A DNA stretch of 34,926 nt from NCBI GenBank assembly GCA_902612235.1, contig CACMCJ010000009.1:1-34926 (forward strand), read 5' to 3'. Of this stretch, positions 9,090 to 15,541 are shown in pieces. The notes under the pieces are model-generated. The model saw nothing but the letters and a program-made list of their open reading frames with translations, did no database searches and was not told where the DNA came from. The position numbers and the translations under genes are program-made. This DNA is from an uncultured Pelagibacteraceae bacterium (GTDB taxonomy: Bacteria > Pseudomonadota > Alphaproteobacteria > Pelagibacterales > Pelagibacteraceae). The first letter of the stretch is position 1; every line of letters starts with the position of its first letter.

Positions 9090-9117
9090 CTTGAAATTAA
9101 TGTAGTAATTGCCATAT
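9090..9117 (+). promoter_or_regulatory. Putative sigma32 (RpoH) heat-shock promoter of lon
   Basis: CTTGAAA at 9090-9096 is an exact match to the sigma32 -35 consensus. After 14 bases comes GCCATAT (9111-9117), one mismatch from the CCCATNT -10 box; the spacer is within the known 11-16 range. Transcription would begin near 9124, 2-3 bases before the ATG at 9127. Lon is a classical sigma32 target, and cultured SAR11 is known to keep RpoH as one of very few sigma factors. Position, sequence and gene function agree; not tested experimentally here. Confidence 0.6.
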
Positions 9118-9126
9118 ATATGGAAT

Positions 9127-11508
9127 ATGAAAACTTCTTATATTAAACCATTATTACCGTTAAGAGACATAGTCATTTTTCCATCCATGGTAGTACCTCT
9201 TTTTGTTGGTAGAGAAAAATCGATAAAAGCGCTTCAAGAAGTTATGAAGTCAGACAAATCTATTGTTCTAGTTACACAAAAAAATTCTGAGGTAGACGAT
9301 CCTGAGGGTAAAGATTTATATGGCTATGGGTGTCTAAGTAAAGTTTTACAATTACTAAAATTACCAGATGGAACAGTAAAGGTTTTGGTGGAAGGTGAAA
9401 AAAGAGTAAAAATATTAAAACACAATTCAGAAAAAGATTTTATAAAATGTGAAGTTGAAGTAGTCGAAGATCAAAATGAGAGTAAAGAATTAGATGATTT
9501 TGCAATAGGTCTTGTTAAAAAATATGAAAAATTATTAATTTTGAGTAAAAAAGATTTTAATGAGACTACTAATAATCTTAAAAATCTAAGGAATGCTTCT
9601 CAAATTTCAAATAATATTTCTTCAAATTTAAGTATTCAAATTTTTGAAAAACAAGAATTACTTGAGATACTAGATGTTAAAAAAAGGCTAGAAAAAATAC
9701 ATGCATTAATAGAAAAAGAAACAAGCGTTCTTTCAGTCGAGAAAAAAATTAGGGGTCGCGTAAAAAACCAAATGGAAAAAACGCAAAGAGAATATTATTT
9801 GAACGAACAATTAAAGGCTATCCAAAAAGAATTGGGAGAGATTGATGAGGGAAAAGATGAGTTATCAAGTCTTTCGAAAGCGATTACGAATGCGAAAATG
9901 CCCAAATTGGCAAAAGAAAAATGTCTTTCAGAATTAAAAAAATTAAAATCAATGAGTCCAATGTCAGCAGAGGCTACTGTTGTTAGAAACTATTTAGATT
10001 GGATGACAGAGCTTCCTTGGTCTAATAAGTCTAAGATTAATACCGATTTAAAAAACGCTCAAAAGATTTTAGACGAAGACCATTACGGTTTAGAAAAAGT
10101 CAAAGAGAGAATAATAGAATTTCTTGCAGTACAAAAAAGAATTCAAAAGATGAAAGGTCCTATTTTGTGTTTAGTAGGCCCCCCAGGAGTTGGAAAAACA
10201 TCTTTGGGTAAATCAATTGCTAAAGCAACAAACAGAAAATTTGTTAGAATTTCACTTGGGGGAACTAGAGATGAAGCAGAAATAAGAGGACATAGAAGAA
10301 CTTACATAGGCTCTTTACCTGGAAAGATTATTCAAATGATGAAAAAAGCTGGAACTAAAAATCCACTTTTTTTATTAGACGAAATAGATAAAGTTGGAAA
10401 TGATTACAGAGGTGATCCGTCTTCAGCTTTACTGGAAGCTTTAGATCCAGAGCAAAATAAAGAGTTTAACGATCATTATTTAGAAGTAGATTATGATTTA
10501 TCAGATGTAATGTTTGTTACAACTGCAAACACTTTAAATATATTACCTCCACTTTTGGATAGAATGGAAGTAATTAGATTATCTGGTTACACAGAAGACG
10601 AAAAAGTAAACATTTCACAAAAGTATTTGATACCAAAACAAAGTCAAAATAATGGACTTAAAAAAGATGAGTGGGGGATAGATGAAAATGTTAATCGAAA
10701 AATAATAAGAAATTATACTAGGGAGTCCGGAGTTAGAAACCTTGAGAGAGAGATTTCTAAAATTGCAAGAAAATTAGTTAAAAAAATAGATAATAATGAA
10801 AATATAAACAATCCTGTTAAAGAAAATGATATGAAAGATTTACTAGGAGTTCAAAAGTTTAATTATGGAGAGATAGAAGAAGAAAACAGAGTTGGCGTAG
10901 TAACAGGTCTAGCTTGGACAGAAGTAGGTGGAGAAATTTTAAAGATTGAGTCTGCTGTAATGCCTGGTAAAGGAAAAATGCAAATCACTGGAAAACTAGG
11001 AGACGTTATGCAAGAGTCTGTAAAAGCTGCAAAATCATATATAAGATCTAAGAGCTTAGAATATGGAATAATACCCCCTGTATTTGATAAAAAAGATTTT
11101 CACATTCACGTTCCTGAGGGAGCAACACCTAAAGATGGACCTTCAGCAGGAATTGGAATGGTAACGTCAATCATTTCTGCTATCACTGAAATTCCTGTAG
11201 ATAAAAAAGTCGCGATGACTGGAGAGATCACTTTAAGAGGAATTGTTCTGCCAATAGGTGGGTTAAAGGAAAAACTTTTGGCCGCTCATAGAGCAGGAAT
11301 TAAAAAAGTTTTAATACCAAAAGAAAATAAAAAAGATTTAGCTGAAGTTCCAAAGACAATAGTAAATTCAATGGAAATAATCCCTGTCAAAAATGTTGAT
11401 GAAGTATTAAAAGTTGCTTTGACTAAACCGCTAAAAAGAGTTGAATGGGTTGAAGTTGATCAGATTTCAAATAAAAATAAATCTAAGGAAGAACTTAGCA
11501 CACATTAA
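9127..11508 (+). CDS. lon: ATP-dependent protease Lon
   Basis: 793 residues from the ATG at 9127. An in-frame TTG at 9109 would add MPYIWN, but it falls upstream of the transcription start predicted from the adjoining sigma32-like promoter. Domains: N-terminal LON substrate-binding domain (from [19 protein letters not shown]), a helical linker, AAA+ with Walker A GPPGVGKT (351-358) and Walker [10 protein letters not shown], and a C-terminal peptidase with the Ser-Lys dyad Ser673 (PKDGPSAG) and Lys716 (GGLKEKLL), 43 residues apart as in E. coli Lon. It degrades misfolded and some regulatory proteins in the cytosol. It closes the tig-clpP-clpX-lon block and is followed, two bases after the stop, by a convergent glycosyltransferase gene. 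Confidence 0.97.
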
Positions 11509-11510
11509 AT

Positions 11511-12401
11511 TTAATCAAGCCAATCTTTGTATTTTTCTAAATTATGATTAATGTAGCTTGGTAAATAATTTTTATCAATTGCCTTTAAAATTGATTTTCC
11601 CGACCACTTATAACCCTTTTGGTCCACTTTATGATCATACATAACTCTTTTTTCATGAATTAATTTTTTAAGATCATTAATATTTAAACCACTTTCCTCA
11701 TACTCATAATGATGTGCAAAATTTAATAATTTTTTTTCTAATTCCTGCGGTGTTCTTAAACATGTGAAATGCCAACCTCCATTTTTTATGAAAAATAAGT
11801 TGGAGTATTTTTTTTTAGAAAAAAGCACATCTATTCTCCACTTTGGATAATTTTTACCCTTTATATTTCTTAACCATTGGGGAGAAATAAATTGTTTTCG
11901 TTTTATACCTTTAGTTCCTTGCCAAACAAAATCTTCATAAAATAGATTCAATTTGTAATAAAACATTTTTTGTTCAAAAATAAGTATTCTATTTCCAATA
12001 TTTGAAAAATTTACATCTGAAAGATTTGGGATTTCATCTAGGTCACTTATTAGTATTAAATCTTCTGCTTGAGCATCTTTTATTCCATCAATTAATTTTT
12101 CCCTTTGATAATAATCTCGTGCCATACCATTTAAAATTAGTTTTTCTCCCTTTTTTTCTTTACTTTCTCCATCTTCCAGCTCAAGAAGAGTGGGAGGTTC
12201 TTCATCTACAACGATATACTTTATTTTATCTTTAAATTTACTAAATCGATTAATATCAAAGTTGAGTTTCTTTTTATTGCCATTATGGGTATATGTAGCC
12301 TCAGTAATTATAAATTTTTTAACATACTTATTAAGAATATTAAGTCTTAGATCTAAAAGCAGATCTTCGTCAAAATACATAAAGCAATCATAGATATTCA
12401 T
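11511..12401 (-). CDS. GT17-type glycosyltransferase
   Basis: 296-residue soluble protein. The N-terminus NIYDCFMYFDEDLLLDLRLNIL, the ITEATYTHNGNKK strand, the DYYQRE segment and LILISDLDEIPN (Asp120/Asp122, a DxD-like metal/nucleotide site) are the signature of glycosyltransferase family 17, named for the eukaryotic beta-1,4-mannosyl-glycoprotein beta-1,4-N-acetylglucosaminyltransferase. GGWHFT near residue 212 is also typical. Bacterial members occur in surface-glycan loci; donor and acceptor cannot be read. No signal peptide or membrane helix, so it should act in the cytosol. Divergent from the three-domain sugar enzyme (35-base gap), which suggests a shared pathway. Convergent with lon, 2 bases between stops. 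Confidence 0.85.
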   Translation of the reverse strand: MNIYDCFMYFDEDLLLDLRLNILNKYVKKFIITEATYTHNGNKKKLNFDINRFSKFKDKIKYIVVDEEPPTLLELEDGESKEKKGEKLILNGMARDYYQREKLIDGIKDAQAEDLILISDLDEIPNLSDVNFSNIGNRILIFEQKMFYYKLNLFYEDFVWQGTKGIKRKQFISPQWLRNIKGKNYPKWRIDVLFSKKKYSNLFFIKNGGWHFTCLRTPQELEKKLLNFAHHYEYEESGLNINDLKKLIHEKRVMYDHKVDQKGYKWSGKSILKAIDKNYLPSYINHNLEKYKDWLD

Positions 12402-12436: not shown

Positions 12437-15004
12437 ATGCAAATAGACAATCTTATGATTAAAAAAATCATTATTACAGGTGGCTTAGGTTATATAGGCA
12501 CAGAGCTTTGCAAAATCTACTCAGGTGTTAGTTGGCATCACAAAATTATAGTAATTGATAATAGATTCATCTCTGAAAGAGTAAATCAGATTAGAAACTG
12601 GAATATGGAATTTATTCATGGTGATATTCTAGATAAAAATCTAGTTAAAAGATTATTCCAAGATGCCGACATTGTTCATCATTTAGCAGGTGTTACCGAT
12701 GTCCCGAGAACTAAAAACGAGTCAACAAAAGAAAAAGATCAGATAATAAAATCAGTGGGCGAAGAAGGTACACAAAATATTTTAGACAATATAAGTAAAG
12801 AATGTAAGATTATTTTTCCATCAACACATGTAATATATGAAGGGATAGATCATGTAAAAAAAGATATTAAGGAAGATGACGAGCCTAAACCAGTTCTCTC
12901 TTACTCATCTTCAAAAGCTATTAATGAAAAACAAATTAAAAATTCCGGAAAAAATTATGTAATTTTAAGATTAGGCTCTGTATACGGTTATTCTACTGAC
13001 ACAGCTCGAATTGATATAATGCCTAATCTATTTTCTAAAATTGCATCTCAAAACGGAACATTAAAGCTTTTTTCAGGAGGAAGACAAATTAAAAGTTTAG
13101 TCCCGTTAATGGATGTAGCTAGATGTTTCAAATTCATGGAAGAAAAACAAGATATTAATTCTGAAGTATTTAATCTTACCAAAGACACTTTAACAGTCAA
13201 AGAAGTAGCGGAAATTTGTAAAAAGCATAACCCACTTGTGACATTAAGGGAAACTAATGATGAAATACCAAATTTAGGTTTTTCTTTATCTAATAACAAA
13301 TTAATGAAAACTGGATTTAAATTTTTGTACAGTTTAGATGAAAGCATAAAAGAAATGATAAAAAAATGGTCAAAACAAATTATTATAAAAGATTTAGAGT
13401 ACGTAAAAGATGGGGAAAATTTATACTTAGATGATAGAGGAAAAATAAGCAATCACGAGTTAACAGAGCCTATAAATTTAATTGGCTTAATTGACTCAAA
13501 AAGAGGAACTATTAGAGCAAATCATTATCATCCTCAGCAGGAACAAAAATGCTTATTTACAAAAGGACAAATAATTGAAATTTTTCAAGATATTATTAAT
13601 CCTAACTCTCCAAAAATTACTCAAGTTGTTAACGAGGGCCAATTATCAGTGATCAAGCCTAATGTGGCACATACAATGGTTTTTACTAAAGACACAACTT
13701 TTTTAAATTTAGTAAGAGGAGAAAGAGATCATGAAAATTATGGAACAACTCATACAATCAAACATGTTTTTGTTGATGAAGAAGAAAAAGATATGTTAAT
13801 TAAATTTTATAAATTCGACTGCCGTTCTTGTGGCAACACAGATCTTAAAAGAGTTGTATCATTAGGCTACCAGCCTTTAGCAAACAATCTGCTAAATAAA
13901 AAGAATGAAAAATGTGAATTATTTCCATTAGAGGTAAATTTCTGCGATAAATGTTATAATTGTCAATTATCAGTATCTGTAGATCCAAAAAAGATGTTTT
14001 CAAATTATCTCTATACTTCATCTACATCTAAAGTTTTCAGGGATCATTTTGTTTCAGCTGCAAAAAAATATATTAAAGATTTTAAGCTAAACAAAAGAAG
14101 CTCAACAATTATTGATGTGGGAAGCAACGATGGAGTAGCATTGAAACCATTTTTAGAATTAGGTTTTAAAAATATACTAGGAATTGAACCAGCTAAAAAC
14201 TTAGCAAAAATGGCAAATAAGAATAAAATTAAAACATTTAATGGTTTTTTAGAATCAAAAAATTTGAAAAAAATAAAAAGAAAAAATGTTGATTTAATTT
14301 TAGCATCAAACGTATTTGCTCACTCTGATAAATTACAAGAAATGGCTGAGTGTATGTTAAAATTATTAAGTAACAAAGGGACTATAATTATTGAGGTTCA
14401 ATATTTATTAAATACTCTTAAAGATTTAACTTTTGATAATATATATCATGAACATTATAATTATTGGTCATTAACTTCTTTGGTAAATTTTTTCAATAAA
14501 TTTAATGCTAAAATATTTAGATCTGAAACTGTTAATACTCACGGTGGTTCAATTAGAATATATGTTAAAAAAGATAAAAAAGTAAAAATTGAGAATAGTG
14601 TAAAAAAAATGTTAAGAGATGAAAACAATTTTGGCATTAAAAAATTTGAAACATATAAAAAATTTGGCCAGGAAGTTTATAAAATTCGAGAGAACGTAAT
14701 TAGAAATATAAAAAAATATAAAAATAATAAATCAAAAGTTATTGGATTTGGAGCTCCAGCCAAAGCTACAACTGCTTTAAATTTTTTCGGAATAAATGAT
14801 GAAATAGATTTTATTGTTGAAGACAATAAATTAAAACATAATAAATTTATTCCTGGAGTTAAAATTCCTATTAAAAGTAAAAAAGAGATAAAAGATAAAA
14901 AAAATACCGTTATAGTCCTTGCTTGGAATTTTTTTCAGGATATTAAAAAGAATAATATAAATTTATCTGATAATTTTGTGAATATAAAAGACTTAGAAAA
15001 ATAA
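12437..15004 (+). CDS. Three-domain sugar-nucleotide enzyme: SDR + cupin + C-methyltransferase
   Basis: One uninterrupted frame of 855 residues. Domain 1 (about 8-312) is an extended short-chain dehydrogenase/epimerase with the NAD-binding TGGLGYIG (14-21), HHLAGVTDVPR and the catalytic YSSSK (Tyr156, Lys160). Domain 2 (about 315-450) is a cupin with HYHPQQEQ (His363, His365, Glu369) and a distal His412, resembling sugar isomerase/epimerase cupins. Domain 3 (about 455-855) is a sugar C-methyltransferase: a zinc site CRSC (462, 465) and CDKC (503, 506), the SAM motif DVGSNDG (560-566) and the C-terminal GFGAPAKA (770-777). Together they would oxidise/epimerise and C-methylate a nucleotide sugar. 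SDR plus cupin in this order is also the layout of CapF; the third domain extends it. The start could instead be Met7 (12455), nearer the SDR norm. Substrate unknown. Confidence 0.85.
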   Translation: MQIDNLMIKKIIITGGLGYIGTELCKIYSGVSWHHKIIVIDNRFISERVNQIRNWNMEFIHGDILDKNLVKRLFQDADIVHHLAGVTDVPRTKNESTKEKDQIIKSVGEEGTQNILDNISKECKIIFPSTHVIYEGIDHVKKDIKEDDEPKPVLSYSSSKAINEKQIKNSGKNYVILRLGSVYGYSTDTARIDIMPNLFSKIASQNGTLKLFSGGRQIKSLVPLMDVARCFKFMEEKQDINSEVFNLTKDTLTVKEVAEICKKHNPLVTLRETNDEIPNLGFSLSNNKLMKTGFKFLYSLDESIKEMIKKWSKQIIIKDLEYVKDGENLYLDDRGKISNHELTEPINLIGLIDSKRGTIRANHYHPQQEQKCLFTKGQIIEIFQDIINPNSPKITQVVNEGQLSVIKPNVAHTMVFTKDTTFLNLVRGERDHENYGTTHTIKHVFVDEEEKDMLIKFYKFDCRSCGNTDLKRVVSLGYQPLANNLLNKKNEKCELFPLEVNFCDKCYNCQLSVSVDPKKMFSNYLYTSSTSKVFRDHFVSAAKKYIKDFKLNKRSSTIIDVGSNDGVALKPFLELGFKNILGIEPAKNLAKMANKNKIKTFNGFLESKNLKKIKRKNVDLILASNVFAHSDKLQEMAECMLKLLSNKGTIIIEVQYLLNTLKDLTFDNIYHEHYNYWSLTSLVNFFNKFNAKIFRSETVNTHGGSIRIYVKKDKKVKIENSVKKMLRDENNFGIKKFETYKKFGQEVYKIRENVIRNIKKYKNNKSKVIGFGAPAKATTALNFFGINDEIDFIVEDNKLKHNKFIPGVKIPIKSKKEIKDKKNTVIVLAWNFFQDIKKNNINLSDNFVNIKDLEK

Positions 15005-15007
15005 TTA

Positions 15008-15541
15008 CTAATAAAAAAAATTATTTACAATATCTTTTATATTATTAATAGTTTCAAATAAGTGCTCTAAATACAATTGTGTAAATGGAAAATTAAATAT
15101 TACAACTTCTTGTGCAAAGTATAAAATTCTTAAAATCACAATTATTGATACAATAAAAAGTAATAATGAATTATAAAAACCAAAGCTAATTTGCTTTCCA
15201 CTGCTTATTGGTTTTTTTTGATCTATTTTTTTTTCATTTAATTTTATGCCGTGTTTCTTTGCTAAATACTCTGGAGAATATAAACTTGGACCCGTTTTTT
15301 TAGTAACTTTCTTAATTTTATTTTTTGTTATTTTTGTTTTAGCAGTTTTTTTTATACTGGCCTCTTTTTTGATTATTGGATCCTCAACTTTCTTAGGCGG
15401 TATTTTCGATGTTTCAGCTTTGACAGGAAATTGTTTCCATTTTAAACCACAATAACCACATTGTACCATTCTGCCAGAAACAGGTATAGAATTGTCAGGA
15501 AGTGTAAATTTCTTTTCACCGCAATTACAAGTTATAATCAT
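15008..15541 (-). CDS. Zinc-ribbon (MJ0042-type) membrane protein
   Basis: 177 residues. The N-terminal zinc ribbon has Cys5, Cys7, Cys28 and Cys31 (ITCNCGEKKF and VQCGYCGLKW). The first pair is CxC where this finger normally has CxxC. A Lys-rich, low-complexity linker of about 70 residues follows, then one membrane helix (about 124-142) and a short amphipathic C-terminus. This architecture is common in alphaproteobacterial proteins of unknown function; I do not assign one. Convergent with the sugar enzyme (3 bases between stops) and divergent from tRNA-Val. The predicted topology puts the zinc finger in the cytosol. Confidence 0.75.
   Translation of the reverse strand: MIITCNCGEKKFTLPDNSIPVSGRMVQCGYCGLKWKQFPVKAETSKIPPKKVEDPIIKKEASIKKTAKTKITKNKIKKVTKKTGPSLYSPEYLAKKHGIKLNEKKIDQKKPISSGKQISFGFYNSLLLFIVSIIVILRILYFAQEVVIFNFPFTQLYLEHLFETINNIKDIVNNFFY

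Follow-up and report, generated by a model that had tools for sequence, protein, structure and literature searches.

CapF is a bifunctional enzyme of capsule synthesis in Staphylococcus, and sugar 3-C-methyltransferases of the TylC3 kind need a 4-ketone as their substrate. Cj1427, a short-chain dehydrogenase/reductase (SDR), is described in the available text as a ping-pong C4-dehydrogenase that oxidises C4 of GDP-heptose with tightly bound NAD(H) (PMC10680097), and plant RHM proteins, likewise according to the available text, unite dehydration, epimerisation and reduction (PMC4691112), i.e. multi-activity sugar-nucleotide enzymes are known. By analyzing a stretch of 34,926 nucleotides from an uncultured Pelagibacteraceae (SAR11) bacterium (contig CACMCJ010000009.1, hereafter the window), we found a single open reading frame (ORF) of 855 codons that encodes, in this order, an SDR, a nucleoside diphosphate (NDP)-sugar cupin and a complete TylC3/TcaB9/MtmC-type 3-C-methyltransferase (CMT), with the catalytic residues kept. 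Each single domain can be assigned to a known family; no description of the three in one protein, of its conservation in Pelagibacteraceae or of its presence in phages was found in the openly licensed PMC literature, searched by title and start of abstract. We consider it probable that this single polypeptide synthesises a 3-C-methyl sugar nucleotide for a surface glycan.

Three domains in a single frame

The fusion frame starts with ATG and contains no internal stops. Its relatives were collected as 109 copies, i.e. distinct frames of at least 825 residues, chosen because both the SDR and the CMT match within one frame, with linker lengths playing no part in the choice. They stem from two routes, are skewed to close relatives of the window, and were freed of duplicates by identity over the last 700 residues. 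To these were added 63 viral loci, 62 from two IMG/VR scans and one from a phage record, some of whose copies are identical or nearly so. Codon and linker counts refer to the 109 copies, residue invariance to 28 aligned fusions. That a sequencing or assembly error had joined separate genes was an alternative already raised in the preliminary description of this DNA. A few copies do look broken (in the genomes G549 and G447, loci L129 and L124, and in the viral loci L184 and L228), but the same frame recurs in 109 distinct copies from numerous genomes, assembled from single cells as well as from metagenomes, and in 44 of the 63 viral loci all three domains share a frame (three of these cut by a contig end). 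We rejected the artefact, whose probability we regard as negligible.

The true in-frame fusion that the preliminary description had proposed is also apparent at the joint between cupin and CMT. Both linkers are constant in length in all 109 copies (26 residues for 440-465, 31 for 305-335), and residues 448-457 are modelled as a helix by AlphaFold. In the window, residue 453 is a Met situated a short distance before the CMT, which had been read as a possible surviving internal start. It is not conserved: at codon 453, 7 of the 109 copies have ATG and 70 have TTA, and 54 copies lack any ATG, GTG or TTG across residues 440-461. Met453 is therefore incidental. The internal start was rejected on these codon counts, a test that leaves the ribosome-binding site aside, and the helical joint of fixed length also speaks against it. 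The boundary as such is genuine, because in the viral locus L233 an SDR-cupin gene (450 residues, ending ...QILS) and a CMT gene (403 residues, starting MNKKECRSC) split exactly there with a 4-nt overlap, the break falling, as judged by eye, between the equivalents of window residues 456 and 457.

The three intact sugar-nucleotide domains of the preliminary description were confirmed, as the quoted motifs were found and Pfam, a cupin profile and AlphaFold agree. The SDR (Pfam) precedes the cupin (profile, fold) in one chain, which upholds the CapF-like order. In the SDR, the Epimerase domain PF01370 covers residues 11-247 (E 2e-24), and Cj1427 is the closest PDB sequence (6vo6, E 3.8e-26) and is matched by fold as well (Foldseek, 6vo6_D, E 1.6e-24, TMt 0.87). 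The Thr, Tyr, Lys and NAD-binding Asp of Cj1427-like C4-dehydrogenases are all present as T130, Y156, K160 and D41, the first three lining up with the Thr-Tyr-Lys of Cj1427; residue 130 is T in 104 and S in five of the 109 copies. An Asp-Glu pair after the catalytic Thr is the mark of 4,6-dehydratases. This pair is not present in the SDR, where T130 is followed by the invariant H131 and V132, and the 4,6-dehydratase model TIGR01181 (NCBIfam) gives it 65 bits vs a cut-off of 365.1. No Cap5F row occurs among the 28 PDB matches of the SDR at E 1e-5.

As a single sequence the cupin stays below the curated Pfam cut-offs, both for PF14667 (Polysacc_synt_C, E 0.0033, 18.0 bits vs 28.7) and PF00908 (E 0.027), and the window domain alone as query gave no NCBIfam match and a best PDB E of 0.25. 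A profile of 47 rows, built from fused and free relatives and run against the PDB sequences, reached Cap5F at 1.1e-4 and FdtA at 1.2e-4. Modelled alone by AlphaFold (pLDDT 90.2), the domain has a 3,4-ketoisomerase as its best fold match (Z 14.0), with CapF at 12.0 and 3,5-epimerase-type entries at 11-13. The FdtA residues H49 and H51, mutated according to PDB titles, correspond to H363 and H365 of the fusion by profile alignment with manual numbering.

The TylC3-like nature of the CMT was likewise confirmed, with Methyltransf_13 (residues 462-521, 9.7e-17), Methyltransf_23 (547-692, 2.7e-13) and Methyltransf_14 (701-840, 1.1e-40) all over their Pfam cut-offs. The four zinc cysteines C462, C465, C503 and C506 are unchanged in the 28 fusions. 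Sugar 3-C-methyltransferases are the top relatives in the PDB (4rv9 (MtmC) at 8.8e-58, KijD1 and TcaB9) and likewise the top folds (Foldseek 1.9e-34, TMt 0.87). Five residues named in titles of TcaB9 mutants (Y76, H181, Y222, E224 and H225) pair with Y524, H629, Y670, E672 and H673 of the fusion, all five invariant, in a sequence alignment counted manually with a numbering offset of 2. The best reading is that the domain would methylate C3 of an NDP-4-keto sugar.

AlphaFold, run on the whole fusion with an alignment of 27 fusions, returned three well-formed domains (mean pLDDT 85.9). In the NCBIfam scan 19 models matched, none over its cut-off, and PHROGs yielded one epimerase family and one weak family of unknown kind. 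The preliminary description had asked whether the fusion was a named, widespread family: widespread it is, but it falls under no NCBIfam model at the cut-off.

Proposed chemistry and its alternatives

The domain assignments, the catalytic residues, the build as a single chain, the conservation, the gene neighbours and the adjacency of the partner genes in other genomes are observed, whereas we infer all of the chemistry, including the substrate, the order of the steps and the use of the product by a GT17-family glycosyltransferase. The SDR with its bound NAD would first turn an NDP-hexose into its 4-ketone by oxidation at C4, as Cj1427 does on GDP-heptose. The ketone would acidify the C3-H, allowing the cupin either to epimerise C3 (CapF/RmlC-like) or to shift the keto group (FdtA-like), after which the TylC3-type C-terminal domain would move a methyl group from S-adenosylmethionine (SAM) to C3. 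The SDR that may make the ketone probably also re-reduces it, its NADH rendering the cycle redox-neutral, and a neighbouring glycosyltransferase (GT17, elsewhere GT2) would then transfer the sugar. This order of oxidation, methylation and reduction is tentative and rather doubtful, and our estimate of it was lowered because the dehydratases of genomes without the fusion were counted as a control. The boldest reading goes further. An ordinary NDP-hexose would be oxidised at C4 by the fusion's own bound NAD, methylated at C3 and re-reduced at C4, no 4,6-dehydratase being involved, and SAR11 and large phages would keep the fusion with GT17 as a module for surface or virion glycans; this reading is rather unlikely.

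Out of 20 fusion-bearing genomes, 14 had RmlB, 14 a CDP-glucose 4,6-dehydratase and seven Gmd over the cut-offs (manual tally), while the same searches in seven genomes lacking the fusion gave five, two and two, respectively. Because no single kind of 4,6-dehydratase was over its cut-off in all 20 carriers, an SDR making its own ketone is favoured, though unproven.

A quite conceivable alternative, if short of probable, is the classical deoxysugar route, which combines the logic of CapF and TylC3. A separate RmlB, Gmd or CDP-glucose 4,6-dehydratase would feed in NDP-4-keto-6-deoxyhexose, the cupin would epimerise it, the CMT methylate C3, and the SDR only reduce C4 at the end. Known CMT relatives carry deoxysugar-pathway names as their PDB molecule names, and a Desulfolutivibrio plasmid has epimerase-family and CMT genes beside a CDP-glucose 4,6-dehydratase. 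The virenose scheme, an in silico proposal as given in the available text, also methylates C3 of a 4-keto-6-deoxy sugar (PMC3539893). Set against this route are the lack of any one dehydratase in all carriers, even though 18 of the 20 genomes are at least 90% complete, and an SDR that lies nearer to a C4-dehydrogenase than to the common 4-reductases. The branched deoxysugar of the preliminary description stands in part: its C-branching is well supported, whereas for deoxygenation the SDR lacks the Asp-Glu pair and no 4,6-dehydratase gene is universal.

Several observations weigh against the chemistry proposed above, and part of them favour the deoxysugar route. In 18 of the 20 carriers one or more of the three 4,6-dehydratases exceeded the cut-off; none did in G000 (84% complete) and G520, the latter having a Gmd-like gene at 399 bits vs the cut-off of 415. 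It is possible that a 6-deoxy 4-keto substrate is supplied by dehydratases differing from strain to strain. Carriers have the CDP-glucose dehydratase somewhat more often (14 of 20 vs two of seven, in groups that differ in genus), and Gmd-like genes lie near the fusion in the phage clusters L180, L181 and L185 (385-410 bits vs 415), with Gmd look-alikes also in L182 and L183. The SDR shares only 27-28% identity with Cj1427, and nearby rows include epimerases, so that its reaction is not fixed; the fold Z values overlap for isomerases and epimerases, and the cupin may be either. With a pTM of 0.62 for the full model, the mutual placement of the domains, and hence any channelling, is uncertain. 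As for the glycan module, lon and no glycosyltransferase is found directly upstream in 20 of the 109 copies, and 48 of the 63 viral loci have no GT17-like ORF. Lastly, the NDP-hexose itself is a substrate that we infer. A link to GDP-heptose by way of GmhA was considered and rejected, as none was over the cut-off in 27 SAR11 genomes (weaker matches occurred in 10 of these, seven of them among the 20 carriers).

Distribution and gene neighbourhood

A scan with one genome per species gave 231 stretches, 223 of which encode a relative; the best 80 of the 223 were kept, and all are titled Pelagibacteraceae, Pelagibacterales or Pelagibacter and match near the whole query, with a best segment of 75-84% identity. 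The family, class and phylum samples are draws that include incomplete genomes, each genome contributing 2 to 4 scored candidates, so that absence is soft. By manual count, the SDR (part of it at contig ends) and the CMT are read through in a single frame in 82 of the 197 genomes sampled from the family, and nine further ones have broken, contig-cut or partial matches of at least 57% identity. The gene is not universal in the family. In G020 lon directly adjoins the zinc-ribbon gene, with no fusion at that slot or elsewhere in the genome, and G158, G267, G357, G448 and G454, which belong to other genera and are 99-100% complete, gave no fusion match at E 1e-60.

Features of the window around the fusion gene (positions in the window; residues counted along the fusion protein)
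Feature	Coordinates	Strand	Basis
lon protease gene, left border of slot	9109..11508	+	name judged from sequence; synteny
GT17-family glycosyltransferase, divergent, usual neighbour	11511..12401	-	PF04724 5.3e-14, 52.5 bits vs cut-off 26
SDR-cupin-CMT fusion ORF, 855 aa	12437..15004	+	ORF list, Pfam; 109 distinct in-frame copies collected
SDR domain, Cj1427-like, residues 8-312; GxxGxxG at 15-21, D41, T130, Y156, K160	12458..13372	+	PF01370; PDB 6vo6; Foldseek 6vo6_D; conservation
Cupin domain, residues 321-446; H363, H365, H412 invariant	13397..13774	+	profile matches to Cap5F, FdtA; AlphaFold model, fold matches; invariance
Cupin-CMT joint, residues 447-461, fixed length	13775..13819	+	109/109 copies; helix 448-457 in model; split viral homologue
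Zinc-binding N-terminal part of CMT; C462, C465, C503, C506 invariant	13820..13999	+	PF08421; invariant columns
SAM-binding part of CMT; H629, Y670, E672, H673 (Y524 just upstream)	14075..14512	+	PF13489; TcaB9 alignment, mutant titles, invariance
C-terminal domain of CMT	14537..14956	+	PF08484 1.1e-40
Zinc-ribbon protein gene, right border of slot, then nuoA (15949 on)	15008..15541	-	PF13717 3.7e-7; synteny

The names lon, clp and nuo at the slot are putative assignments made from the sequences. Of 14 family genomes queried, 12 matched lon. It precedes the fusion by at most four genes in 91 of the 109 copies; in 85 it does so with zinc-ribbon or nuo genes downstream. The direct upstream neighbour is the divergent GT17 gene in 78 copies, lon in the 20 copies already mentioned and another same-strand gene in nine, and two loci have none. 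Six of the nine same-strand genes are GT2-like and end 2-6 nt upstream or overlap the fusion; one of these was domain-scanned (PF00535 1.8e-31), the remaining five being called by their N-terminus. The stretch downstream of lon looks like a variable slot. In other genera (L164, L165 and L166) lon is followed by a transporter-like set, a run of some twelve small ORFs, or a glycan cluster that includes other CMTs, all names here being guesses. The available text on SAR11 places the hypervariable surface-sugar island HVR2 between the 5S and 23S rRNA genes (PMC2217521), and from its position between lon and nuo the fusion gene would lie outside it.

Some copies depart from the common form. The one in G549 (L129:2523-5070) is in two frames, and that in G447 (L124:6098-6895) stops once most of the SDR has been encoded and is followed by unrelated genes. 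Two different full-length fusions occur in G469 (L126:7100-9676 and L127:4411-6960), one after a GT2-like gene and the other beside GT17; this assembly is 4% contaminated, and the two may stem from two organisms. In the Pelagibacteraceae genome G451, a free SDR (L121:5651-6583) is 62% identical to the fusion SDR and has no adjoining cupin or CMT. It was rejected as an ancestor, since it groups with the SAR11 fusions (support 91, distant outgroup), and on this moderate evidence looks more like a remnant.

A restriction of the fusion to SAR11 was rejected on viral matches in phage records and in IMG/VR. When 50,697 phage records were searched by tblastn, six matched, and in one of these (LR756502.1, 642,428 bases) the match covers 97% of the fusion query at 55% identity. 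Judged by its length, we take this record to be the complete 642-kb phage reported, in the available text, by Al-Shayeb and others (PMC7162821). Viral status otherwise rests on IMG/VR and a few domain-scanned neighbours. Phage-like among the latter are SbcC/SbcD-like genes and a sliding clamp (L179), an SbcC-like gene (L243), a collagen-like tail fibre (L178) and ribonucleotide reductase (L233); the SbcCD and clamp genes suggest that large phages with the fusion may be T4-like. Identity of the viral fusions to the window protein is 50-62% in the SDR, 54-68% in the cupin and 47-60% in the CMT. A GT17-like ORF was found in 15 of the 63 viral loci (PF04724 5.6e-22 in the 642-kb phage), 13 of them among the 44 full fusions, and in seven loci it immediately precedes the fusion or its SDR part; none of the seven intact viral loci with a free CMT has one, which is a small comparison and not a fuller background control.

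Beside the two broken-looking frames, the viral loci include cut or fragmentary ones (L229, L237, L245, L248 and L249), ones with SDR-cupin only (L231, L233, L234 and L242, in L233 followed by its CMT) and ones with CMT only (L238-L241, L243, L244 and L247), and L246 has an SDR plus a cupin-CMT. The SDR-cupin genes at L231:5992-7383, L242:6013-7398 and L234:1409-2779 lack their cognate CMT. They are flanked by a much more divergent CMT-like gene (25-26% identity), one or two genes further downstream, and by another CMT (32-38%) on the upstream side, an arrangement that resembles an exchange of the methylating part. One viral fusion, L225:5992-9366, has 1124 residues, about 250 of which are additional, of unknown kind, and placed on the C-terminal side of the three domains.

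Trees of the CMT (with 38 viral fused rows) and of the SDR were made as quick trees with SH-aLRT supports. In the CMT tree the SAR11 fusions form one clade (99), with the viral ones as neighbours (87), and both are jointly set apart from cellular free CMTs (99). The viral split forms are nested among the fused ones and, because of this, look like later fissions. In the SDR tree, which has distant outgroups, a viral clade (97) falls among the SAR11 rows, a position that is weakly supported (83-84). Transfer between SAR11 and viruses may have gone either way.

Free-standing relatives bear on the notion that genome compaction fused the genes by chance, with the domains serving different sugars and sharing no pathway step. 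SAR11 genomes are compact, the viral SDR-cupin genes of L231, L234 and L242 lie near a different CMT, and in L238-L240, L243, L244 and L247 the CMT comes right after another SDR-like gene. However, when 385 genomes of the class were queried with the free cupin of another alphaproteobacterium, 10 matched besides the window's own (E <=5.1e-31), and in all 10 genomes the free cupin adjoins a free CMT match, 32-89 nt upstream of it on the same strand (three weaker or contig-end matches were left out of this count). The same query finds the fusion cupin in the window's genome at E 4.9e-15. With linker lengths fixed in all copies and the single frame of most viral loci, a chance fusion is very improbable. 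Outside Pelagibacteraceae, none of 398 genomes of the phylum, the window's own excepted, had a match for SDR plus cupin at E 1e-25. Among plasmids, none of 158 matching records covers 80% of the fusion query in one place; Brachyspira and Desulfolutivibrio plasmids have an epimerase-family gene adjoining a CMT together with rfbF, in Desulfolutivibrio also with rfbG.

SAR11 bacteria are among the most abundant marine cells and have very small genomes, and many of them nevertheless keep this enzyme of about 850 residues, which would serve a single unusual sugar. The three-domain protein is also encoded by phages, one of them with a 642-kb record, which suggests that the sugar matters at the interface of cell and virus. 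The fusion shared by relatives and viruses points to a conserved route to an unusual branched sugar for surface coats, and yields a testable prediction, i.e. branched-sugar synthesis by one protein.

Comparison with described systems

TylC3, TcaB9, KijD1 and MtmC share with the fusion CMT the three Pfam parts, the four zinc cysteines and the five residues mutated in TcaB9. Their chains are free-standing, with 416-426 residues, whereas the fusion CMT is the C-terminal half of 855. CapF (Cap5F) has SDR and cupin in one chain in the same order as the fusion (cupin profile 1.1e-4, fold Z 12.0). It has no methyltransferase, however, and the fusion SDR is nearer to Cj1427; with its PF14667 score under the cut-off, the fusion was not filed as CapF. 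Cj1427, a GDP-mannoheptose C4-dehydrogenase, is the closest solved SDR by both sequence and fold, with Thr-Tyr-Lys aligned, but stands alone, its partner epimerase and reductase being separate genes according to the available text (PMC10680097). The 3,4-ketoisomerases FdtA, QdtA and WlaRB are among the best cupin folds (Z 12.3-14.0), and both named histidines are kept; they are stand-alone or fused to an acetyltransferase (FdtD), with 13-20% identity to the fusion cupin.

Among viruses, the sugar clusters of jumbo phages contain NAD-dependent epimerases, cupin isomerases and glycosyltransferases, and as described in the available text neither the three-domain fusion nor a C-methyltransferase is named (PMC7824862). 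The Klosneuvirus KNV1 'Methyltransferase' A0A1V0SJ68 (743 residues, BFVD) is matched by Foldseek along the greater part of the fusion model (E 1.4e-50). Compared by fold alone, it is shorter, 21% identical and reaches a TM of 0.42-0.48, and may represent a fusion that arose separately or was shortened in a giant virus infecting protists.

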